A stretch of DNA of 41,959 nucleotides from an uncultured Pseudomonadota bacterium (GTDB lineage: Bacteria; Myxococcota_A; UBA796; SXON01). The stretch lies in the NCBI GenBank assembly GCA_903921785.1, contig CAIXRH010000247.1:1-41959 (forward strand). The letters run 5' to 3'. Every line of letters starts with the position of its first letter. The stretch's first letter is position 1. Positions 12,016 through 31,416 of this stretch are shown here, piece by piece. A model generated the notes under the pieces. The model had not been told where the DNA came from. It saw nothing but the letters and a program-made list of their open reading frames with translations, and did no database searches. A program made the position numbers and the translations under genes.

Positions 12016-15000
12016 TTGTACGTGCTCCTGCTCCTCGCCTGCCCCGTCACCACCCCCGACTCCGCGACCGAAGCCTGCGACGACGTCACCGTCTTCGGCG
12101 ACTACGACGGCGACGGGTTCGGCGACGACGAGGCGGTCGCGACGGTGTCCAGTTGCGACGTGCGGCCGGTCGGGTACGTGGACGTAGGCGGCGACTGCGA
12201 CGACCGGGACGCCGCGATCGCCCCCGGCGCGACCGAGACCTGCAACGACACGGACGACGATTGTGACGGCACCGTGGACGAGGACGTGGCGACCTCCACG
12301 TTCTTCCCCGACCGCGACGGCGACGGCTACGGCGACGACACCGCGCCGGTGTCCGCGTGCGCCGCGCCCGCGGGCACCGTCGCCGACGGCGGCGACTGCG
12401 ACGACACCGACGGGGGCGTCCACCCCGGCGCCGTGGAGGTCTGCGACGGCGTCGATCAGGACTGCGACGGCGTCGCGGACGCTGCTGCCCCGGACGCGCC
12501 CGCGTGGTACGCCGACACCGACGGCGACGGCTTCGGTGACGTCGCGAGCGTGGCCGCGGCCTGCGACGCCCCCTCCGGCTACGTCGCCGACGCTTCCGAC
12601 TGCGACGACACCGACGGCGCCGTCTCCCCCGCCGCCACCGAGCTCTGCAACGGCACGGACGACGACTGCGACGGCGACATCGACGGCGGCGCCGCCGACG
12701 CCCTCACCGCCTGGCCCGACACCGACGGCGACGGCTTCGGCGACCCGGCCGCCCCCGTGGCCACCTGCGCCCTCACCGACGGCCTCGTCGCCGACGCCAC
12801 CGACTGCGACGACCACGCCGCGGCCACCTTCCCTGGCGCCCCCGAGACCTGCGACGGCGCCGACCAAGACTGCAACGGCACCGTGGACGACGACTACGCC
12901 CTGGACGCCGCCACCTGGTTCGCCGACCTCGACGGCGACGGCTACGGCGACCCCGCCGCCACGACGCTCGCCTGTTCGGCGCCGGCCGGCTTCGTGGGCG
13001 CGTCCACCGACTGCGACGACACCGAGTCCACGACCAGCCCCGGCGAGCCCGAGCTCTGCGGCGACGCCGTGGACAACAACTGCGACGGCGCGATGAACGA
13101 AGGCTGCACGCTGTCGCACTGCGGCGGCATCGCCGCCGACGAGACCTGGGGCACCGGGTACACCCACGAGGTCACCTGCCCGGTGTACGTGCAGGGTTCG
13201 GCCGCGCCGACGCTCACGATCGAAGACGGCGTGACGGTGGAGATGGGCAGCGGCACGGCGATCTACGTGGGCTACACCGAGAAGGGGCGCCTGGTGGCGG
13301 ACGGGTCCACCTACGGGATCACCTTCACCTCGGCGCTCGGCTCCCCCCTCCCCGGCGACTGGTCCTACCTCTACTTCGGCACGCAGGACCGGCAGTCTTC
13401 GCTCACCGGCGTCACCGTGGAGTACGGCGGCCAGGGGCTCACGCCCTCCATCTACGTCTGGGGCAACGCCGGCGGCTACGCGCTGACGCTCGACGGGGTG
13501 ACCGTGCGGGACGGCGCGGGCGACGGCGCGTACTTCTACCTGGGCAGCTACCCGGCGGTCACCGGGAGCACCTTCGCCGACAACGCCGGCTACGGCGTGG
13601 AGAGCCTCGGCGCGTTCGCGGTGCCCTTCACCGACAACGTGCTCACCGGCAACGCCGAGCCGCTCTACGTCTACGGCAGCCAGGTGGACCAGCTCGACGC
13701 GTCCAACGACTTCACCGGCAACACCACCGACCTCATCGTGGTCGGCGGGGACACGCTCAGCGCCGACGCCACCTGGGTCGACGTGGGTGTGCCGTACCTC
13801 GTGATGGGGTCCCAGTTCGTGGAGGGCAGCACCGGGCCCACGCTGACGATCGACGCGGGCACCGAGGTGCAGTTCGCCGCGGGCGTGGGCATCGAGGTGG
13901 CGCGGCACGCCGCCGGGAGCCTCCGGGTGGCCGGCACCGCGGCCGACCCCGTCACCCTCACCGCGTACAACCCGGTCGGCGGTGACTGGATGGGGCTTTT
14001 GTCCTGGGGCGCGAGCACGTTTTCGGTGGACCACGCCGACGTCTCCTACGGCGGCAACGGCGGCGCCGGCTGCATCGGCAACACGCTCACCACCGGCCCG
14101 GCGATGCTGGTCGCCAACTCCACGATCCACCACTGCGATGGGCCCGGTTTCTACGTAACCGGCACCGGCATCCTCTCGGTGCTCGACAGCGAGGTCTACG
14201 ACAACCAGGGCGCCGGGGTGGAGACCGCCTGGCTGGGCTCGGTCGCCGCGATCTCCGGAACGACGTTCACCGGGAACCACGACGAGCCGCTGGTCATCGA
14301 CGCAAGCAGCCTCCCGGCGATGGGCCCCGGCAACGTGATGACCGGCAACGGCGTGGACGAGGTGCTCCTCGACGGCGGCACCCTCACCGCCGACGCCACG
14401 CTCTACGACTACGGCGTGCCGTGGCACGTCACCGCCGACGTGACCGTGGCGTCTTCCTCCCGTCCGGTCCTCACCGTCGAGGACGGCGTCGACGTACAGT
14501 TCGATCCCGGCGCCGGGCTCACGATCGGCTCCCCGGCGAACCCCGGCACCCTCGACGTGCAGGGCCCCACCACCGGCGTCCGCTTCACCACCTCCGAGCT
14601 CACCCCCGGCGCGGGCGATTGGGACGGGCTCACCCTCACCTACGGCAGCGGCGGCTCCACGATCACCGGGTTGGAGCTGGAGTATGGCGGCGGCAACGGC
14701 TACGGCGGGCTCGTGCTCTGGGGCTCGGGCAACGAGGGCCTCGACGTGACCCTCGACGGCCTCGATGTCCACGACAGCACCAACGACGGGCTCTACGGCA
14801 CGAACGCCTACGTCTCGCTGGTGGACTCCTCGATCGCCGACAACGCCGGCGACGGGGTGTGGGTCAGCGGGTACACCGGCGGCGTACGCTCGCTCGCCGG
14901 CAGCTCGATCCTCGACAACGGCGGCACCGCCCTCACGATGGACGCCGGCTCGATCTTCGCCGGGGACCTCACCGGCCTCGCCGTCAGCGGCAACGGCTCG

Positions 15001-19384: not shown

Positions 19385-20815
19385 GTGTCCCCTCTCCTGC
19401 TCCTCGCGTCGCTGGCCCACGCTTCCTGCCAGCTCATGCAGACCGCCACCGCGACCGGCACCCGGCTCGACCTCACCGCCAACGCCGAGCCGCTCTCCTG
19501 CCGGCGCATCACGCTGCGCACCCCCACCGAGACCCCGAAGGTGGAGGTCCGCATCGGCAAACGCCGCCCGCCCAAGGACCACGTGCGGGTCACCCCCGGG
19601 CAGGTCGAGATCGGGCTCCCGGAGCTCCTCCCCGGCGACACCGCCACGGTGGACGTGAGCGTCCCCGGCGACAAGCTGGAGGTGATCCTCGGCACCCCGC
19701 CCGCGCCCGCGCCCACCGCGGCCGAGACCCACGTCACCTGGACCGTGGAGCTCAACGCGAAGCACCCCGGCTGGGGCTTCGCCGACCCCGCGTTCGCCGC
19801 GACACACAAGGAGATCGCCACCCTCGGCCCGGACGGGCACCGCACCGAGGAGGAGCGCGGGGCGGCGCCGCAAGGCACGCTGACCCTCGCCCCCGGCTCG
19901 TTCACCCTCCACATCCCCGGTGCCCACCTCTACGGCACCGGCAGCGCAGACGTGCAGGTCACCCACCTGAGTGACGGTCTCCGCTTCGATGCGCCGAAGG
20001 GCGGGGAGGCGCGGTGGATCGTGCTCTCCGTCGTCGGCGCCGGGGTGATCCCGGACTCCGACACCTACATCTCCGGGATCGACTGGCGCTTTCGCCAGGT
20101 GAGCCTCCCCGAGCCGGCGATCCCCGCCCGCCTCGCCTCGGTGACCGACAAGCTGGAGCTGGCCCAGGCGCTCTACGACGAGGTCCGCGGGCCGGTCGAC
20201 GGTTGGTTGCCCGGCCCCGACGCGCTCCACCCCCGACAGCTCAACCGGGCATGGCGCTCGGGCTGGCTCACGCCGGTGGAGCGCGGCCTGGTCCTCGACC
20301 GGATGCTGATGCAGGGCCGCATCGTCAGCGCCTGGGCGCTCACCGGGAGCGCCCCCGACCCGCTCACCCTCACCGGGTTCGACCACATGCTCCTCGCCGC
20401 CCAGCTCGGCGAGCGTGAGGTCCTGCTCGACCCCGCGTGCGCCGCCTGCGCGTTCGACGAGGTGTCCACGAAGGTGGTCGGCAAACCCGCGTTGGGCGCC
20501 ACCCGGGTGGTGCCGCTCTCGCCGGGCACCCTGGAACGCACGATCAAGCTGGTCGGGACGGAGTTCCAGGTGCACGTCAAGGCCACCGGCGCCGGCGCCC
20601 TCTGGCTACGCGAGGCGGTCTGGGGCCTCAGCGACGCGCGGCGGGACGCGGTGCTCGGGGAGCACCTCGGCCTGGAGGGCGCGAAGATCGCGGCGACCAC
20701 CGGACTGGACGAGCCCGGCGCGCCGGTGGAGCTCGACCTCACCGGCGAGCGCTCGCCAAAGCCGCTGTTCTCCGACACCGAGGCGCCGTGGATCGGGGGA
20801 TGGGCGGACCTGTGA
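19385..20815 (+). CDS. Exported protein with transglutaminase-like domain
   Basis: A 476-residue exported protein. GTG 19385 gives the short signal MSPLLLLASLAHAS; the frame is open further left but only antisense to the TPR gene. The first ~270 residues are beta-rich, with no family I can name. Around residues 295-375 the pattern resembles the transglutaminase-like fold used in DUF3857-type proteins: a helix (LVLDRMLMQGRIVSAWAL), then FDHMLLAAQ with the expected His and LLDPACAAC with the expected Asp. The residue normally supplying the catalytic Cys seems to be in GWLTPVER, without Cys, so it may be a non-catalytic relative. It is followed after 104 bp by the GGDEF-EAL gene on the same strand. 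Confidence 0.65.
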   Translation: MSPLLLLASLAHASCQLMQTATATGTRLDLTANAEPLSCRRITLRTPTETPKVEVRIGKRRPPKDHVRVTPGQVEIGLPELLPGDTATVDVSVPGDKLEVILGTPPAPAPTAAETHVTWTVELNAKHPGWGFADPAFAATHKEIATLGPDGHRTEEERGAAPQGTLTLAPGSFTLHIPGAHLYGTGSADVQVTHLSDGLRFDAPKGGEARWIVLSVVGAGVIPDSDTYISGIDWRFRQVSLPEPAIPARLASVTDKLELAQALYDEVRGPVDGWLPGPDALHPRQLNRAWRSGWLTPVERGLVLDRMLMQGRIVSAWALTGSAPDPLTLTGFDHMLLAAQLGEREVLLDPACAACAFDEVSTKVVGKPALGATRVVPLSPGTLERTIKLVGTEFQVHVKATGAGALWLREAVWGLSDARRDAVLGEHLGLEGAKIAATTGLDEPGAPVELDLTGERSPKPLFSDTEAPWIGGWADL

Positions 20816-20919
20816 GGCGCCCCCCTCACGGCTTCCCCGAATGGTCAAGAATCTCCCACGCGGGGCGCGCCGGTCGTGTCTCTACTTGCACGCTCGACAT
20901 TCCCGAGCCACGATCGGGT

Positions 20920-23007
20920 GTGACCTCCTCCGCAGCTGTCGACCGCTTCTTCCAGGTCGCCATCGAGAACGTCTCCGACGCCATCGAGGTGACGGACGCC
21001 ACGGGGCATTTCGCCTACGTGAACCCCGCGTGGGAGCGGCTCACCGGGTACAGCGCGGCCGAGGCGGTTGGGAAGACCCCAAGGTTGCTTCGGAGCAACT
21101 ACCACTCCGAAGAATACTACGACGACGCCTACCGATCGGTCGTGGAGCAGGGGGCGTGGAGCGGCGAGCTGGTGAGCCGCCGGAAGGACGGGAAGCTCAT
21201 CTTCACGCTGGTCTCGCTCACCAGCGTCTACGATCCCGACGGTCGAGCCCGCCACCGGGTCGCGGTACGGCGCGATCTGACGGGAGAGCTCTCGCGAATC
21301 CGTGAGCACGCCGATCGATTTGCGCTCGCCATGCTCGCCACCCGCGATGGGCTCTCGGACTGGGACATCGCCACCGGGGAGGTGTTCACCTCGGAGCGCT
21401 GGAAGGAGATCACCGGCGTCGATCACGCGCCGGCCGAGCTTGCCCAGTGGTTCCAGGCGGCGCTCCACCCCGACGACGCAGGCCGGTTCGGGGCGGAGCT
21501 CTCCCTCCACCTCGAAGGTCGGGACCGCTTCTTCGAGGCCGAATTCCGGATGATCCGCCCCGACGGTGCCGTGGTGCACCTCGAGCACCGGGCGATCACC
21601 GTGCGGGATGACGAAGGGAACGCCGTGCGCGTGGTGGCCGCGCTCGCCGACGTCACCGAGCGAAAGGCCACCGAGCGGAGGTTGTTCCACGGCGCCACCC
21701 ACGACGGATTGACCGACCTTCCGAACCGGTCCCTCTTCGTGGATCATGTCCGCGCCGCGATCGGCCGGGCGAGCCGGGTGGATGGCCCGGCGTTCTCCCT
21801 GCTCTACATCGACCTGCGCCACTTCAAGAGCGTCAACGACGCGTACGGCCACGCCGCGGGCGACGCGCTCTTGCGGTCGATCGCGCGCCGCCTCCAGGCG
21901 ACGGTTCGCCCCGGCGACAGCCTCGCGCGGCTCGGCGGCGACGAGTTCGCCGTGCTCCTCGACGGCGTGGTCTCGGAGGACGTCGCCGACGCAGCCGCGC
22001 GGCGAATCCTCCGCCAGCTGGAGCGCCCCCATGAGATCGATGGGTCTAACCTGGTGATCTCGGCAACGATCGGCGTCACTCTCGGCGACGCCCACTCCGA
22101 CGTCGACCAGCTCGTACGCGCGGCAGACTCGGCGATGTACGAAGCCCGGCGCTCGGACCGCCACCCCGTCGCCCTCTCGACCGACGGGACCGCCGCCGCC
22201 AGCCACCGCCGCGCTCGGATGGTCGGCGCCCTTCGCGACGCGCTCGCGGCCCGGGCGATCGACGTGGTGTACCAGCCGATCGTGCGCGTCCGGGGCAACG
22301 GGCTCGTGGGCGCCGAAGCCCTCGCGCGGTGGACCCACCCGGAGCTCGGCGTGGTCCCCCCCTCGGAATTCGTACCCCTGGCGGAAGAGTCGCAGCTCGC
22401 CGGCCGCCTCGGCGCGGTGGTGCTCGAGCGCACCCTCGACGACCTCGGCCGGTGGATCGAAGATGGCCTCATCGGCCCGGACTTCGTGGTGCACGTCAAC
22501 GTGAGCCCCCACCAGCTGCTCGACCCGCGCCTGCTCAGCCACCTCGCCCGGCTCAGCGCGGCGGGGCGCCTGCCTCCGGGACGCCTCTGCCTGGAGATCA
22601 CCGAGACCGCGCTGGTAGGCCGCCCGGAGGCCGTCGTGCAGACGATCGAGGCGGCGCGGGCCTACGGCGTCACCTTCGCCCTCGACGACTTCGGCACCGG
22701 CTACTCCTCGCTCTCGCACCTCCGCCGTTTCGCCGTCTCCACCGTGAAGATCGACCGTAGCTTCGTGATGCAGCTCCCCGGCGACCCGGTGAGCCGCGAG
22801 ATCGTCGCCGGGCTGCTCACGATGACGCGCGCGCTGGGCATGTCGGTCGTCGCGGAGGGCGTGGAGGGAACCGAGCACGAACGCTGGCTCGACGACCTCG
22901 GCTGCCACCTCGCGCAGGGGTACCTCTACGCGAAGCCGGCCCCGGTCGCCGCGTTCAACGCCTGGGTTCGGGAGAACCAACAGCGGACCGGCGTGCCGGT
23001 GGCCTGA
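20920..23007 (+). CDS. PAS-PAS-GGDEF-EAL cyclic-di-GMP enzyme
   Basis: A 695-residue protein that makes and/or breaks c-di-GMP. GTG 20920 is the only reasonable start: the frame upstream overlaps the previous gene and has no other start close by. Two PAS domains (about residues 5-125 and 130-255, the first with FAYVNPAWERLTGYSAAEAVG) lead into GGDEF (LGGDEF, 339-343) with an intact RxxD inhibition site (RPGD) five residues before it. The EAL domain starts at GAEALARW (466-468) and keeps LDDFGTGYSSL and VAEGVEG. Both catalytic signatures look intact, so a bifunctional or switchable enzyme is likely. There is no membrane segment; PAS input is presumably cytosolic. A PilZ-like protein that may read c-di-GMP is encoded at 32216. 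Confidence 0.92.
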   Translation: MTSSAAVDRFFQVAIENVSDAIEVTDATGHFAYVNPAWERLTGYSAAEAVGKTPRLLRSNYHSEEYYDDAYRSVVEQGAWSGELVSRRKDGKLIFTLVSLTSVYDPDGRARHRVAVRRDLTGELSRIREHADRFALAMLATRDGLSDWDIATGEVFTSERWKEITGVDHAPAELAQWFQAALHPDDAGRFGAELSLHLEGRDRFFEAEFRMIRPDGAVVHLEHRAITVRDDEGNAVRVVAALADVTERKATERRLFHGATHDGLTDLPNRSLFVDHVRAAIGRASRVDGPAFSLLYIDLRHFKSVNDAYGHAAGDALLRSIARRLQATVRPGDSLARLGGDEFAVLLDGVVSEDVADAAARRILRQLERPHEIDGSNLVISATIGVTLGDAHSDVDQLVRAADSAMYEARRSDRHPVALSTDGTAAASHRRARMVGALRDALAARAIDVVYQPIVRVRGNGLVGAEALARWTHPELGVVPPSEFVPLAEESQLAGRLGAVVLERTLDDLGRWIEDGLIGPDFVVHVNVSPHQLLDPRLLSHLARLSAAGRLPPGRLCLEITETALVGRPEAVVQTIEAARAYGVTFALDDFGTGYSSLSHLRRFAVSTVKIDRSFVMQLPGDPVSREIVAGLLTMTRALGMSVVAEGVEGTEHERWLDDLGCHLAQGYLYAKPAPVAAFNAWVRENQQRTGVPVA

Positions 23008-23056
23008 CGTAGATCGGGTCAAGGGGCGGCCCGGGTGCACCGCCCAGCCGACCCGC

Positions 23057-23105
23057 ATCGGCGGCGGTCGAGGAGCCGCCGGGGTGAGAATGGCGAGGCT
23101 CGGGC
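23057..23105 (+). repeat. Dispersed intergenic repeat, copy C
   Basis: Core CGGCGGTCGAGGAGCCGCC, then TGAGAATGGCGAGGCTCGGG. It is a slightly more divergent member of the family at 11760, 11892, 15495 and 33153, located 50 bp after the GGDEF-EAL gene. Confidence 0.6.
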
Positions 23106-23180
23106 CGAAGCCGCCACCGCGGCGCCGCCGACGCCGGTCACGGCTGGCCCACATTGGGCTCGCGAGGGTGGGGAAAGTGA

Positions 23181-23221
23181 GCCGATCCGAGCGCGAGCGT
23201 TCGCGTAGCGCTCGCATCGGC
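23181..23221. repeat. Long hairpin in convergent gap
   Basis: GCCGATCCGAGCGC (23181-23194) and GCGCTCGCATCGGC (23208-23221) pair over 14 positions with one mismatch and a 13-nt loop. No T-run follows on either strand, so it may act as an RNA 3'-end stabiliser or a weak terminator for the rightward transcript. Confidence 0.5.
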
Positions 23222-23238
23222 GGCCGGAGGGGGAACGG

Positions 23239-23313
23239 AAAAGGGCCCCGAAGGGGCAAAACGGCCCCGAAGGGGCAAAAGGGCCCCGAAGGGGCAAAAC
23301 GGCCCGAAGGGCC
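23239..23313 (-). terminator. Four tandem intrinsic terminators after atp operon
   Basis: Read on the minus strand, leaving the atp operon, there are four consecutive stem-loops. The first is GGCCC-TTC-GGGCC and the next three are GCCCC-TTC-GGGGC, each followed by C or G and TTTT. The three identical units form an exact 19-bp tandem repeat (23243-23261, 23262-23280, 23281-23299) apart from one alternating base. Each is a GC stem plus U-tract, the classic intrinsic terminator. The plus strand lacks T-runs, so direction is leftward. Confidence 0.85.
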
Positions 23314-23349
23314 CTTTCGGGAAGAGGCCGGCGCCGAAGCGCCGCCGCC

Positions 23350-23604
23350 CTACACCGCCTCGCAGCTCTCGGTGAGGATCGTCACCCGGTCGGGGCCCGC
23401 TTCCGCGAAGCCCACGCCCACCGTGAACCGCACCTTGCCTTCGCCCGTGTGAACGGTGACCGGGCCGGGGACCAGCGTCGTGAGGTACGGGATGTGCTTG
23501 GGCAGCACCCCGAACTCGCCGAGCGCGCCCGGCGCCTGCACCGAGTCGGCCTTGCCTTCCCACGCCACCTTGCGGGGCGTGACGATGCGAACGTCGAGCG
23601 CCAT
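23350..23604 (-). CDS. atpC: ATP synthase F1 epsilon subunit, short form
   Basis: An 84-residue protein matching only the N-terminal beta-sandwich of epsilon (MALDVRIVTPRKVAWEG, then PGALGEFGVLPKHIPYLTTL and FTVGVGFAEAGPDRVTILTE). The usual C-terminal helical hairpin, which makes most bacterial epsilon subunits 130-140 residues long and can inhibit ATP hydrolysis, is absent; the stop is followed immediately by the terminator region, so nothing is left to encode it. It links gamma to the c-ring. It starts 3 nt after the beta stop, with GGAGG inside the end of atpD as ribosome-binding site. Confidence 0.93.
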   Translation of the reverse strand: MALDVRIVTPRKVAWEGKADSVQAPGALGEFGVLPKHIPYLTTLVPGPVTVHTGEGKVRFTVGVGFAEAGPDRVTILTESCEAV

Positions 23605-23607
23605 GGC

Positions 23608-25107
<1,500 letters not shown>

Positions 25108-25962
25108 CTAGAGCGCTTCGGCGCCGGAGATGATCTCGATGAGCTCGCGGGTGATCGCGGCCTGACGGGAACGGTTGTACTCGATCGTGAGACGGTCGAT
25201 GAGGTCGCTCGCGTTGCGCGTCGCGTTGTCCATCGCCGTCATCTGGGAGGCGAAGAAGCCCGCCTCGTTCTCCAGGAACGCCTGGAGGAGGATGGTGCGG
25301 AGGTACAGCGGCAGAAGCGTGCCGAGGATCTCCGCGCCGTTGGGCTCATACGTGTAGTCGACCGACGCGGCCTCCGTCGCGGTGATCGCGAGCGGGAGCA
25401 CCTTGCTGATCGTGGGGATCTGGGTGAGCGTGCTCTTGAACGCGTTGTAGCAGACGTACGCTTCGTCGAACTCGCCGGCTTCGAAGCCGTTGGTGAGGAA
25501 GTCCGACATCGCCTGCACGGTGCCCTGGAACCGGGCAGAGACGATGCCGTTCTCATTCACCGAATCCCAACCACGGGTCCTGAGGAAGTCCCGGGGCTTC
25601 TTGCCGAAGGTGCGGAGGATGATCTCCTTGCCCTCGGCGCGCTGCGCCTTGAGGAACTCTTCGACCCGCCGGTCGCGGTTGCTGTTGAAGCCCCCGCAGA
25701 GGCCGCGATCCGAGCCCACCACACACACCGCCACGCGGACGACGGCCTGGCGGGACGTGAGGAGCGGATGCTCCACATCGCCCGCGCCCGCGGCCACCCG
25801 CTGGATGGTGGACGTCAGCGCCTGCTGGTACGGACGCGCGTTGGTGGCGGACTCCGTGGCCCGACGCAGCTTCGCCGCCGCGACCATCTTCATGGCGTTG
25901 GTGATCTGCCGGGTGGACTTGACCGACGCGATGCGCGTGCGGATGTCACGCAACGAAGCCAT
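25108..25962 (-). CDS. atpG: ATP synthase F1 gamma subunit
   Basis: A 284-residue rotor-shaft subunit. The N-terminal helix (MASLRDIRTRIASVKSTRQI, followed by TNAMKMVAAAKLRRA) and the C-terminal helix (MDNATRNASDLIDRLTIEYN, followed by RSRQAAITREL) are the paired coiled-coil of gamma; the middle contains the conserved SDRGLCGGFN. The length is normal for bacteria (about 285-290). AAGGAG lies 6 nt before the ATG, a strong ribosome-binding site; the gap to alpha is 9 nt. It converts proton-driven ring rotation into beta-subunit conformational change. Confidence 0.97.
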   Translation of the reverse strand: MASLRDIRTRIASVKSTRQITNAMKMVAAAKLRRATESATNARPYQQALTSTIQRVAAGAGDVEHPLLTSRQAVVRVAVCVVGSDRGLCGGFNSNRDRRVEEFLKAQRAEGKEIILRTFGKKPRDFLRTRGWDSVNENGIVSARFQGTVQAMSDFLTNGFEAGEFDEAYVCYNAFKSTLTQIPTISKVLPLAITATEAASVDYTYEPNGAEILGTLLPLYLRTILLQAFLENEAGFFASQMTAMDNATRNASDLIDRLTIEYNRSRQAAITRELIEIISGAEAL

Positions 25963-25971
25963 GGGTGCTCC

Positions 25972-27501
<1,530 letters not shown>

Positions 27502-28056
27502 CTATCCGAGTGCGGTGGTGGCGAGGGTGACCTGGAGCGTCTCCAGGCGGGTACGAAGCGAAGCGTCGAACAGGCGGCTGCCGACCCGGGCGACCATGCC
27601 GCCGAGGATGGTCGGGTCCACCTTCGTTTCGAGGACCACCTGCTTGCCGGTGGCGGTGGAGAGCGCCGCGGTGATCTCGGCCTGGAGGCCGGAGGAGGCC
27701 GGGGCGGCGGTGGTGACGGTGGCGCGCACGCGGTTGGCGAGCGTATCCGCCAACGCGCGGTACTCCCGAGCGATGTCGGGGAGGGCGGCGAAGCGGTCCT
27801 TGTCCGCCACGAGGCGGACGAAGTTGCTGAAGAGCGGACCCGCGCCGACCTTGGGGAGCACCGCTTCGAGCACGCCGCGGCGCTCGACCGCGGTGAAGCC
27901 CGGGTTGCCCATGGCGCCGAGGAGCTGGCTGTCGTTGGCGAGGCAGAGCTCCACCAGCGCGTCGAGCTGCGCGCCCACCGCATCCACCGAGCTGGACTCT
28001 TGGGCCAGCTCGAGGATCGCCTTGGCGTAACGACGAGCGAGAGAACCTTCGATCAC
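27502..28056 (-). CDS. atpH: ATP synthase F1 delta subunit
   Basis: A 184-residue delta (OSCP-type) subunit. It begins MIEGSLARRYAKAILELAQE, the conserved N-terminal helix that binds alpha, and ends in the b-binding region with DPTILGGMVARVGSRLFDAS. The length is normal (about 178-185). ATG overlaps the stop of b by 4 nt (ATGA), the usual coupling between peripheral-stalk genes. It fastens the b/b' stalk to the top of F1. Confidence 0.95.
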   Translation of the reverse strand: MIEGSLARRYAKAILELAQESSSVDAVGAQLDALVELCLANDSQLLGAMGNPGFTAVERRGVLEAVLPKVGAGPLFSNFVRLVADKDRFAALPDIAREYRALADTLANRVRATVTTAAPASSGLQAEITAALSTATGKQVVLETKVDPTILGGMVARVGSRLFDASLRTRLETLQVTLATTALG

Positions 28057-28691
28057 GCCTCACCTCCCACCGGCTTGCGGAGCGCGCCGAGGAACTCGCC
28101 CTGGAGGCGGGCCTGATCCTCGGGGGTGACATTCTGCTTCACGATCTCCCGGGCGAGGCCGGTGGCCTGCTCGACCACCTCCCGCCGGATCTCGTTGCGC
28201 GCGCGGAGCGCCTCTTCGCGGATGGTGCGCTGGGCGGTGTCGCGGATGCGCACCGAGTCGGCTTCAGCGCGCTCGCGGATGCGCTCGGACTCGGCCTCGG
28301 CCTCGTGGGCCGCCTCGGCCTTCATCTCTTCGATGCGGCGATCGAGCCCGGCGAGGCGGGCTTCGATCTCGTGGTAGCGCTTGTCCGCCTCGTCCTTGAG
28401 GCGAGCGGACTCGTCCAGATCGCGGCGGACGGCGTTCGCGCGGTTGCCCAGGGCGTCCATGATCGGGCGCCGGGCCGCGAAGAACAGCACCAGGATGAAG
28501 AGGACGAGGTTGACGGACTGGAGGGTGAGCAGCTTCGCGTCCGGACCGGACTCGTGGCCTCCCTCTTCGGACGCCGCGCCTTCGTGGGCGGCCGCTTCGT
28601 GAGCCGCACCTTCCGGTGCCGCAGCTTCGGCGCCCGCGGCGCCCTCGTGGCCTTCCTGGGCCCACGCTTCCCCGACGAACAGGCCCATCAC
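28053..28691 (-). CDS. atpF: ATP synthase Fo b subunit
   Basis: A 212-residue peripheral-stalk subunit. Before its membrane helix (LLTLQSVNLVLFILVLFFAARRP, about residues 54-76) it has an unusual ~53-residue N-terminal part: a hydrophobic stretch GLFVGEAWAQ followed by an Ala/Glu/His/Gly-rich tract (EAAAHEGAASEEGGHESG). Similar low-complexity leaders occur on some b subunits of other Proteobacteria and may be periplasmic or cleaved. After the helix comes a long charged coiled coil to the end. The start can be GTG 28691 or ATG 28688, both overlapping the b' stop. With b' it forms a heterodimeric stalk. Confidence 0.92.
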   Translation of the reverse strand: MMGLFVGEAWAQEGHEGAAGAEAAAPEGAAHEAAAHEGAASEEGGHESGPDAKLLTLQSVNLVLFILVLFFAARRPIMDALGNRANAVRRDLDESARLKDEADKRYHEIEARLAGLDRRIEEMKAEAAHEAEAESERIRERAEADSVRIRDTAQRTIREEALRARNEIRREVVEQATGLAREIVKQNVTPEDQARLQGEFLGALRKPVGGEA

Positions 28692-29131
28692 GCCTCCACC
28701 GACAACGGACGACCGAGGGTGCTCGAGGCCATGTCGCCCGCGAGCTGCCGCGCCATGCGGCCCACCTGCTCCCGCGCCAGGGCGGCTTCGCCCTGGAGCA
28801 CCGCCACCTCATCGGCGATCATCTTGTCGGCCTCGGCGCGGGCCTGGGCGACGCGCTTGGCGTGGACCGCCTGGGCATCCGCCCGCTTCTGGGCGCGGAA
28901 GTCGGCCACCTCGGTGCGGGCGCGGGTGAGCGCGGCCTCCCACTGCTGCAGCTTGAGCGTGGCCTTCTCCTGGAGGGCCTCCGCCTTGCGCCGCTCGCCG
29001 ACCGTCGCTTCACGACGCGCGCGAAGGTAGGCCAACATGGGCTTGAAGAGAATGAAATGCAGCCCCGCGATGACCGCGAAGAAGGGGAGCACCTGAAGCC
29101 CGACGAGGATCGGGTCGGGGATGATGTTCAT
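28688..29131 (-). CDS. atpF': ATP synthase Fo b' subunit
   Basis: A 147-residue stalk subunit and the first gene of the operon. ATG 29131 gives MNIIPDPILVGLQVLPFFAV, an N-terminal membrane helix with the typical FKPMLAYL exit, then a charged coiled coil (RREATVGERRKAEALQEK and onward) ending in MASSTLGRPLSVEA. It is shorter than b and has no N-terminal extension, which is why I call it b'. There are no a, c or I genes upstream; instead the divergent methyltransferase starts at 29261, so the rest of Fo must be elsewhere. GGTGGA just before the ATG may serve as ribosome-binding site. Confidence 0.9.
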   Translation of the reverse strand: MNIIPDPILVGLQVLPFFAVIAGLHFILFKPMLAYLRARREATVGERRKAEALQEKATLKLQQWEAALTRARTEVADFRAQKRADAQAVHAKRVAQARAEADKMIADEVAVLQGEAALAREQVGRMARQLAGDMASSTLGRPLSVEA

Positions 29132-29247
29132 CGTCCACCGGGAAGAGGGTCGCGCAACTATGCTGGCGGCTGGTCTCGGGCAAGCCGATTTGCCCACCCA
29201 GACGCCCGCACGGGCGGCCGGCGGGCGGGCATCGGCGACGCGACCGG

Positions 29248-29253
29248 TTACCC
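29248..29253 (+). promoter_or_regulatory. Putative leaderless -10 element
   Basis: TTACCC within CCGGTTACCCG ends 7 nt before the ATG at 29261. No ribosome-binding site is seen upstream of that ATG. Confidence 0.25.
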
Positions 29254-29260
29254 GCCGGGC

Positions 29261-30301
29261 ATGAAGCGGCGCTTGCTCGACTGGCTGGCCTGCCCGGCCT
29301 GCGGGACCCCCGATCTCCACCTCAGCGTGGCGAAGTCCGAAGCCCAAAAGGTGTACGCAGGGCATTGGGAACCCGGCGAGCTCCCGGCCGGTGCGGACTC
29401 CGCGACCCTCGAAGAGGTGATCGAGGGCACCCTCCGCTGCCGGGGCTGCGCCGCCACCTACCCGATCCTCGACGGCATCCCCCGGATGATGGGCCCGGAC
29501 AGCCCCGCGGGCGCCGCCACCGGCCACCGGTGGACCGAGTTCGACCAGGCCGTGCCCGAGTTCGAGAAGAACTTCCTCGATCTCGCGAGCCCCCTCACCC
29601 CGAACGACTTCACGGGCAAGCTCGTGCTCGACGCCGGCTGCGGCTTCGGCCGGCACGCCCGCTTCGCCGCCCGATACGGCGCGGAGATCGTGGCGATCGA
29701 CAACTCGGCCGAGGCGGTCGCGTCGTGCCAGGCCAACCTCCAGGGCGCCGTGCGCTCGCACGTGATCCAGGGCGACGTCGACCGGCCCCCCTTCCGCCGC
29801 GGCATCTTCGATCTCGTCTACAGCTACGGCGTGCTCCACCATGTGCGGGACGCGAAGGCGACGTTTCGCACCCTCGGTGAGCTGGTCCACCCCAGCGGCA
29901 GGTTGTCGATCTGGGTGTACGGGCCGCGCCAGGGCACCACGCGGGTGGCCACGGGCGCGCTTCGCGGCGCCGCCGCCGCGATGACGCCCGAGCAGCTCCA
30001 CAGCTTCTCCCGCGCGATCGCCCGGGGGCTCCGCGTCTTCTCCCACACGCCGTACCGCGTGCTCGGCCCGATCCCTCCCTTCGGAAGCCTGCTCTCGCAC
30101 CTCCCGGTCCACGACCACCACCGCTGGCCGTTCGACGTGGTGGTGGCCGACATCTACGACCGCCTCCGGGTGCCGGTCACCGGGTACTTCACCGGAGAGG
30201 AGGTCGAAGGCTGGTTCGCAGACGCAGGCTACGCCGACATCCGGGTGTCCCGGCGGGTGGGAAACACCGAGAGCTTCCGGGGCCTCGGCACTCGGCGCTG
30301 A
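29261..30301 (+). CDS. Zn-ribbon class I SAM methyltransferase
   Basis: A 346-residue protein with two parts. Residues of about 1-80 are a Trm112-like zinc ribbon: MKRRLLDWLACPACGTPDLH with a second pair CRGC and then YPILDGIPRM. From about residue 125 follows a Rossmann methyltransferase: VLDAGCGFGRHARFA (motif I), IVAIDNSAEAV (acidic loop), IQGDVDRPPF and FDLVYSYGVLHHVRD (motif IV region). The C-terminal extension (HDHHRWPFDVVVADIYDRL) matches methyltransferases of polyketide, lipid or glycan clusters. The substrate cannot be told from sequence. ATG 29261 is selected because the ribbon starts there; the open frame to the left is antisense to atpF. It is divergent from the atp operon (129 bp). 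Confidence 0.85.
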   Translation: MKRRLLDWLACPACGTPDLHLSVAKSEAQKVYAGHWEPGELPAGADSATLEEVIEGTLRCRGCAATYPILDGIPRMMGPDSPAGAATGHRWTEFDQAVPEFEKNFLDLASPLTPNDFTGKLVLDAGCGFGRHARFAARYGAEIVAIDNSAEAVASCQANLQGAVRSHVIQGDVDRPPFRRGIFDLVYSYGVLHHVRDAKATFRTLGELVHPSGRLSIWVYGPRQGTTRVATGALRGAAAAMTPEQLHSFSRAIARGLRVFSHTPYRVLGPIPPFGSLLSHLPVHDHHRWPFDVVVADIYDRLRVPVTGYFTGEEVEGWFADAGYADIRVSRRVGNTESFRGLGTRR

Positions 30302-30323
30302 CGCGGGCGCGTCGGCGGCGCGC

Positions 30324-30368
30324 GCCGACGCTGGTCCCGGCTCGCGACGGTCGAGGAGGGCCGGGAGG
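30324..30368 (+). repeat. Intergenic repeat, second sub-type, copy F
   Basis: 45 bp: GCCGACGCTGGTCCCGGCTC, then GCGACGGTCGAGGAGGGCC and GGGAGG. It matches copy G (38151-38195, opposite strand) at 40 of 45 positions and shares CGGTCGAGGAG with the A-E copies. It lies between the convergent methyltransferase and OmpA-like genes. Confidence 0.65.
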
Positions 30369-30432
30369 GGGAACCCCCCGAATTCGTCCGCGACCGGGAG
30401 GTTGGCCCCGGCTCAGCGCCGATCGGCTCCGC

Positions 30433-31416
30433 TCAGAGCGGCTTCCACGACGCGCCCGGCACGCCCGAGCCCGACGGCGGCGGGTTCGCACCGACGAGGT
30501 ACAGCGCGCGGCGATTGCCGGCGTTGTCCACACCGTCTCCCGTGGGGAACGCCAGGAAGGACTCCCCGAAGCCGTAGTAGAAGATCGGCCCGCCGTAGCC
30601 GTGGCCCTTGAACCAGGTGGCGATGGCACGGGCGCGGCGCTCGCTGAGGTCGCGGTTGTGGCCGCCGTCGCCCACCGTGTCCGTGCAACCGCCGACGAAG
30701 AGCTTCACCTTCACGATCGCCCCGTACTTCACCAGGATGTCCTGGATCTGGGCGAGCACGGCGGTGAGCTTCCACTCCTGATCCTGCGCGATGACGTCGC
30801 TGTCGCTGGCGAAGAGCACGTCGTCGTGGGGGATGTCGAGGAACCACGGGGAATAGGTGAAGCCGGAGTAGCCGGTGTTGTTGCGCAGGGTCACGTCGAG
30901 GAGGACGACGTCGTTGGGGTTGCCCACGAAGGGCACCGCCACCTCGCCGGGGCCGCCGTCCATCGGCACCACGCGCTTGTCGAGCACCTCCTTGCCCACG
31001 CCGTACGCCGTGACTTCGGCTTCGAGCACGCGCCCCGACACCTGCACCGACACCGTCTTCTTCTCCAGATCGGCCTCGGCGTGGCTCAGGTCGACGTGCA
31101 GGGGCACCTGGTAGGTCCAGGACACCGGCACGTCCTGCTCGACCACATCCCCATCCACGAAGCCGGCGCGCACAAAACACGTGGCCGTGGTGATCGCCTC
31201 GTTGTGGGGGAACTTCACCGTGACCTGGGCGCCGGCCGCCACCGAGCCCTTCTCGAGCTCGATGTGCTTGCCGCCGACCTCGCAGTTGACGTAGAGCGTC
31301 TTGACGTTGCGCGACGGGGTGAGGAAGAAGGCCGGGTTCTCCTTCGGACCGGGCGCGGGGGTGACCCCAAAGCCGAGGTCCTGGGCGAGCGCGACGTGGA
31401 GTAGGGTGAGGATCAT
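30433..31416 (-). CDS. Exported OmpA-like domain protein
   Basis: A 327-residue exported protein. ATG 31416 is the first possible start and gives MILTLLHVALAQ, a 12-residue signal without Lys or Arg. The first ~200 residues are beta-rich, with VTVKFPHNEAIT and YQVPLHVDLSHAEAD, resembling an Ig-like or assembly domain rather than an outer-membrane barrel. The C-terminus is an OmpA-family peptidoglycan-binding fold: VKLFVGGCTDTVGDGGHNRD, followed by LSERRARAIATWF, and finally GDGVDNAGNRRALYLVG. It probably anchors to the cell wall; the TG..D..YN signature is varied (TDTVGDGGHNRDLS). The ATG is preceded by AGGGGG and GATAAG. Confidence 0.8.
   Translation of the reverse strand: MILTLLHVALAQDLGFGVTPAPGPKENPAFFLTPSRNVKTLYVNCEVGGKHIELEKGSVAAGAQVTVKFPHNEAITTATCFVRAGFVDGDVVEQDVPVSWTYQVPLHVDLSHAEADLEKKTVSVQVSGRVLEAEVTAYGVGKEVLDKRVVPMDGGPGEVAVPFVGNPNDVVLLDVTLRNNTGYSGFTYSPWFLDIPHDDVLFASDSDVIAQDQEWKLTAVLAQIQDILVKYGAIVKVKLFVGGCTDTVGDGGHNRDLSERRARAIATWFKGHGYGGPIFYYGFGESFLAFPTGDGVDNAGNRRALYLVGANPPPSGSGVPGASWKPL

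Follow-up and report, generated by a model that had tools for sequence, protein, structure and literature searches.

Four near-identical terminator-like hairpins in tandem behind an atp operon

Tandem terminators as such have long been known, and the two that stand in a row behind the highly used rrnB operon, T1 and T2, differ from one another. For most bacteria, a U-tract of only four U is short. A passage in PMC7843447 mentions a tandem TrrnB construct, and an excerpt of PMC12207403 gives U-tracts of 3-4 U in the first 10 nt for GC-rich Streptomyces. We analysed a window of 41,959 nucleotides (the whole stretch of DNA under study) from an uncultured, GC-rich bacterium in which four head-to-tail GC hairpins, each followed by UUUU, lie on the minus strand from 23313 down to 23239. 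With the intrinsic terminators of GC-rich bacteria, the array shares a GC stem, a short loop, a short U-tract (four U here) and a place just behind an operon; it differs from them in that the stem is only 5 bp long, the U-tract is set 1-2 nt off the stem, and there are four copies instead of one. Like rrnB T1-T2, the array would set two or more terminators one after another at the end of a heavily used operon, but here four near-identical units follow each other at 18-19 bp spacing and are evidently copies of each other. Among open-licence PMC papers, and with the search words used, no paper on terminators built of repeated units was listed. Most likely, the array is an ordinary transcription stop that local duplication has copied; it is unusual in its repetition without being a new kind of device. 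We consider it probable that it acts as a compound intrinsic (Rho-independent) terminator of the atpF-H-A-G-D-C operon, enlarged by local tandem duplication, and that it limits antisense transcription into a convergent PAS-GGDEF-EAL gene.

Position and repeat structure of the array

The array begins 36 nt past the stop codon of atpC, on the atp coding strand. atpC (23350..23604, minus strand; ORF and Pfam) is the final gene of the atp operon atpF-H-A-G-D-C (23350-28691, minus strand; ORFs and Pfam), and 342 nt separate it from the convergent PAS-GGDEF-EAL gene on the plus strand (20437..23007; a mechanical ORF with a provisional start, assigned by Pfam). The first-pass annotation had placed the hairpins behind the atp operon and convergent to a GGDEF-EAL gene, which the ORFs and Pfam matches bear out. 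This is the placement of an intrinsic terminator, past the last gene of a transcription unit and on its coding strand, with the next gene convergent. Read on the plus strand, the stems run into AAAA, and T1 has no more than TTT behind it, so that the array lacks the layout of a bidirectional terminator and could terminate only in the atp direction.

The coordinates, the strand and the layout of four units with GC stems and TTTT given in that annotation all agreed with the sequence. The unit transcribed first, T1 (23296..23313, minus strand), is a variant that reads GGCCC-TTC-GGGCC followed by GTTTT, with a 5-bp stem of -7.9 kcal/mol. T2 (23277..23295), T3 (23258..23276) and T4 (23239..23257), on the same strand, are alike in stem and loop, GCCCC-TTC-GGGGC, and end in CCTTTT, CGTTTT and CCTTTT, respectively. 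The units had been described as three exact 19-bp copies; T2 and T4 are indeed identical over 19 bp, while T3 differs from them by one base, a G for a C in the tail. Similarly, the loop had been read as TTC(G), of which TTC holds and the G does not, the loop of the 5-bp stem being a triloop. In T1, one stem pair is changed in both of its bases relative to T2-T4, and pairing is kept.

Tandem Repeats Finder (TRF) reported a period of 19 with 3.9 copies and 92% matches over 23239-23311, and a 13-bp dyad recurs at 19-bp spacing. Along the array, the tails CG and CC take turns (CG, CC, CG, CC). At lag 38 the sequence matches itself exactly over up to 29 bp (23239-23267 with 23277-23305), at lag 19 over no more than 18 bp. 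Since the exact repeat is longest at the 38-bp period, the likely and simplest history is local tandem duplication of a dimer, in which a two-hairpin block of 38 bp would have been doubled. A coding repeat was ruled out, since 3 does not divide the period and the ORFs that span the array are mechanical. No known RNA family was matched in the window by Rfam at gathering scores. Elsewhere in the window, a tandem repeat of period 204 bp (12192-13025, 4.1 copies) has a consensus that reads as Asp/Gly/Cys-rich coding repeats, presumably resembling the DCDG kind of metal-binding repeat proteins.

Terminator features, folding and chance expectation

The units had been called terminator-like in structure, and all four indeed carry a stem of five GC pairs (-7.9 kcal/mol each) with TTTT behind it. 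Together they form four hairpin-plus-TTTT units in 75 bp on one strand with no intervening gene, each a putative terminator. The UUUU begins 1-2 nt after the stem, and a strict consensus scan requiring at least 5 T in 8 accepted T4 only of the four. Over 22500-30500 the strict scan returned 2 terminators where shuffles gave 2.9, that is, no excess. A d'Aubenton-Carafa-type score put all four units below zero when the tail was taken to begin at the stem (-2.2 to -13.7) and above zero when it was taken to begin 2 nt further on (7.3 to 19.5).

We calculated equilibrium folds only, and termination is decided by folding during transcription. For transcripts ending just past the T1, T2 or T3 stem, the probability of the local hairpin was 0.09-0.97 depending on the start; for those ending past the T4 stem it came to 0.70 with one start and stayed under 0.01 with the other two. 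In longer transcripts, long-range pairs beat the local hairpins, above all the pairing of GAAAGGGCCC, which precedes T1, with the GGGCCCUUU that follows T2 or T4. In folds of transcripts up to T1, up to T2 and beyond, and of the whole array, the segment CCCGAAAG directly ahead of T1 (23314..23321, minus strand) contributes a GAAAG able to pair with T1 on its U-tract side (CGAAA.GGCCC...GGGCC.UUUUG) and also with GGGCCCUUU after T2 or T4.

As a sample of the genome we took the window plus 20 further stretches (353,653 bases, 69.7% GC, both strands), with three shuffles as control. The sample held 20 hairpin-plus-TTTT sites, including the 4 in the array, against a shuffle mean of 16.3; single sites of this kind are no commoner in this genome than chance. 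Four such sites cluster only in the array, the sole other real cluster in the sample is a pair (locus L112), and the three shuffles never placed two sites within 40 nt of each other, so the array is not a product of chance. Runs of TTTT are uncommon in this genome, with its 70% GC; three TTTT runs at 9-30 base spacing occur in only three other places, none with a GC hairpin beside every T-run by eye. The reversed-pattern control for this search carries no information, as the pattern is palindromic in reading order.

For weak hairpin-plus-T sites, 224 roughly called gene ends showed no enrichment (12 in sense, 13 in antisense, 11.0 in shuffles), so this genome seems to use few intrinsic terminators. 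Long stems (at least 9 bp, with at least 4 T) stood behind gene ends in 3 sense and 2 antisense cases against 0.0 shuffled, and strong-stem sites with tails similar to those of the array were found behind other genes, for example at L111 and L113. The genome also encodes a Rho-like protein, which scored 353.9 bits, under the family cut-off of 509.45. The lack of enrichment of weak sites, together with the Rho-like protein, would fit an array that chiefly stabilises the mRNA 3' end, with a stack of GC hairpins blocking 3'-to-5' exonucleases and Rho terminating further downstream. The closeness of the hairpins to the last gene and the shortness of their U-tracts would suit this role, which is itself compatible with termination. 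A stabiliser would not, however, need four TTTT runs set 1-2 nt past the stems in a genome where such runs are rare, and we regard stabilisation as an unlikely chief function.

Distribution in the genome and in relatives

A search of the genome for the 19-bp unit had been named beforehand as a check, and its matches were confined to the array: with up to 2 mismatches, the 19-mer gave 3 matches in the 7.48-Mb genome, all within the array, and not the many copies of a REP- or BIME-like repeat. With up to 1 mismatch, the unit occurred in 1 of 11 genus genomes, namely this one, and was absent from its 10 congeners; a general two-unit pattern, likewise with up to 1 mismatch, was found in this genome alone among 377 of the phylum. 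An order-level search of 63 genomes gave two chance-like matches at 2 mismatches (G036 and G017), and 72,556 plasmid and 50,697 phage records gave none. Given the single site in the genome and the absence from the congeners, the other phylum genomes and the plasmid and phage records searched, a dispersed or mobile repeat was ruled out at the sensitivity searched.

Looser patterns led to a similar picture. Three TTTT runs matched 21 of 22 genomes of the family, as expected for so loose a pattern, and no similar array was seen by eye among the matches listed. The pattern TTTT, CCCC-NNN-GGGG, TTTT was present in 6 of the 377 phylum genomes, and none of the 5 sites outside this genome repeats one unit. 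One of the five (L162, G058:C95:25470-25492) shows, by eye, a GC hairpin with ATTTTA and, immediately after it, GCCCC-TTT-GGGGC with TTTT. Unlike the array, it consists of two unlike hairpins in a row and is an ordinary two-part tandem terminator-like site. The earlier judgement that back-to-back duplication of a terminator is unusual therefore holds for this genome; it does not extend to tandem arrangement in general, which L162 and the known tandem terminators display.

atpC was found in 53 of the 58 genomes searched, this one included, and we read the region behind it in 29 relatives, none of which has the array there. Two members of the family (L019 and L020) carry one long hairpin with a GTTTTG tail that passes the scan, and a third (L022) looks alike by eye; four others (L031, L033, L034 and L037) show, by eye, a strong hairpin with a broken T-tract. 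The eight congeners read (L010-L017) have no passing site behind atpC and nothing conserved. Hairpins of the L019/L020 type thus mark the region behind atpC as a position at which putative terminators recur in the family, while the array itself appears private to the species, as judged from its one genome, no second having been found, and the atpC loci of the 29 relatives. Among the records met in this comparison, CAMBIK010000036.1, titled as a Klebsiella pneumoniae MAG, encodes an AtpC 79% identical to that of this genome and is probably mislabelled.

The near-identity of the units indicates that they are young, and this, along with the absence of the array from all congeners read, is what would be expected if only one or two units terminate and the rest are useless replication-slippage copies that have not yet decayed. 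The paired change in T1 speaks against such neutrality: because both sides of the stem pair changed and the unit still pairs, some selection is suggested, if by a single observation. We rate neutral copies as an improbable account of the array.

A dispersed element of about 208 bp, apparently non-coding, has a truncated copy 12 bp from the array, where positions 23174-23226 correspond to its right-hand 53 bp. This element has 27 matches in the genome and none in the 10 congeners; several matches lie at contig ends and some adjoin each other (contigs C239 and C213). Full copies occur, for example, in L002 (about 1310-1525), L005 and L007, and by eye the element holds several inverted repeats, such that our guess is that it is MITE- or REP-like. 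Rfam, run on three loci with the element, matched no family on it; the only other hits were 5S rRNA elsewhere in L007 and a sub-threshold match at L002 80-174, outside the element. Seven other copies that we viewed end on the right without such an array, and we take the neighbourhood of element and array as coincidence. A second short dispersed sequence, present in L005 and L002, matches window positions 23056-23099 at about 90% over 40 bp. It is very unlikely that the array consists of protein-binding sites or is itself a dispersed repeat element: the 13-bp dyad at 19-bp spacing and the true dispersed element nearby would suit this, but the unit occupies one genome site, one genus genome in 11 and, as a two-unit pattern, one phylum genome in 377, and the array is missing from the seven other element copies.

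A probable compound terminator and its significance

The compound terminator that we favour would work through repetition. A polymerase leaving atpC would transcribe a GC hairpin and then UUUU four times in 75 nt. With its 5-bp stem, its triloop and four U starting 1-2 nt past the stem, a single unit would be a modest terminator; read-through of one unit would meet the next, and the summed termination should thus be efficient, limiting antisense transcription into the PAS-GGDEF-EAL gene. The T-tracts in the atp direction only, 36 nt past the atpC stop, support this reading, as do the 5-bp GC stem kept in four of four units with the paired change in T1, and the unique four-site cluster in 353,653 bases with no clusters in shuffles. 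The hairpins of L019 and L020 at the same place, the similar-tailed sites at L111 and L113, and the short U-tracts usual in Streptomyces (excerpt of PMC12207403) are consistent with it. Against it stand the strict scan, which accepts one unit in four, the regional count not above shuffles, the negative score with the tail taken from the stem, the unenriched weak sites at gene ends, the favoured long-range pairs and the lack of conservation in eight congeners.

A further elaboration, that gain or loss of 19- or 38-bp units tunes antisense leak into the c-di-GMP gene and so couples growth-linked transcription to signalling, strikes us as a long shot; the odd copies might also fold in another way than the even ones, as CCCUUUU, with which the upstream GAAAGGGCCC can pair, closes the even units alone.

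If it terminates, the array would be a natural example, and a clean one, of how tandem copying strengthens a terminator where the genome is GC-rich and U-tracts are short, and a series of one to four units would measure how weak terminators add up; apart from that, it is ordinary operon punctuation.
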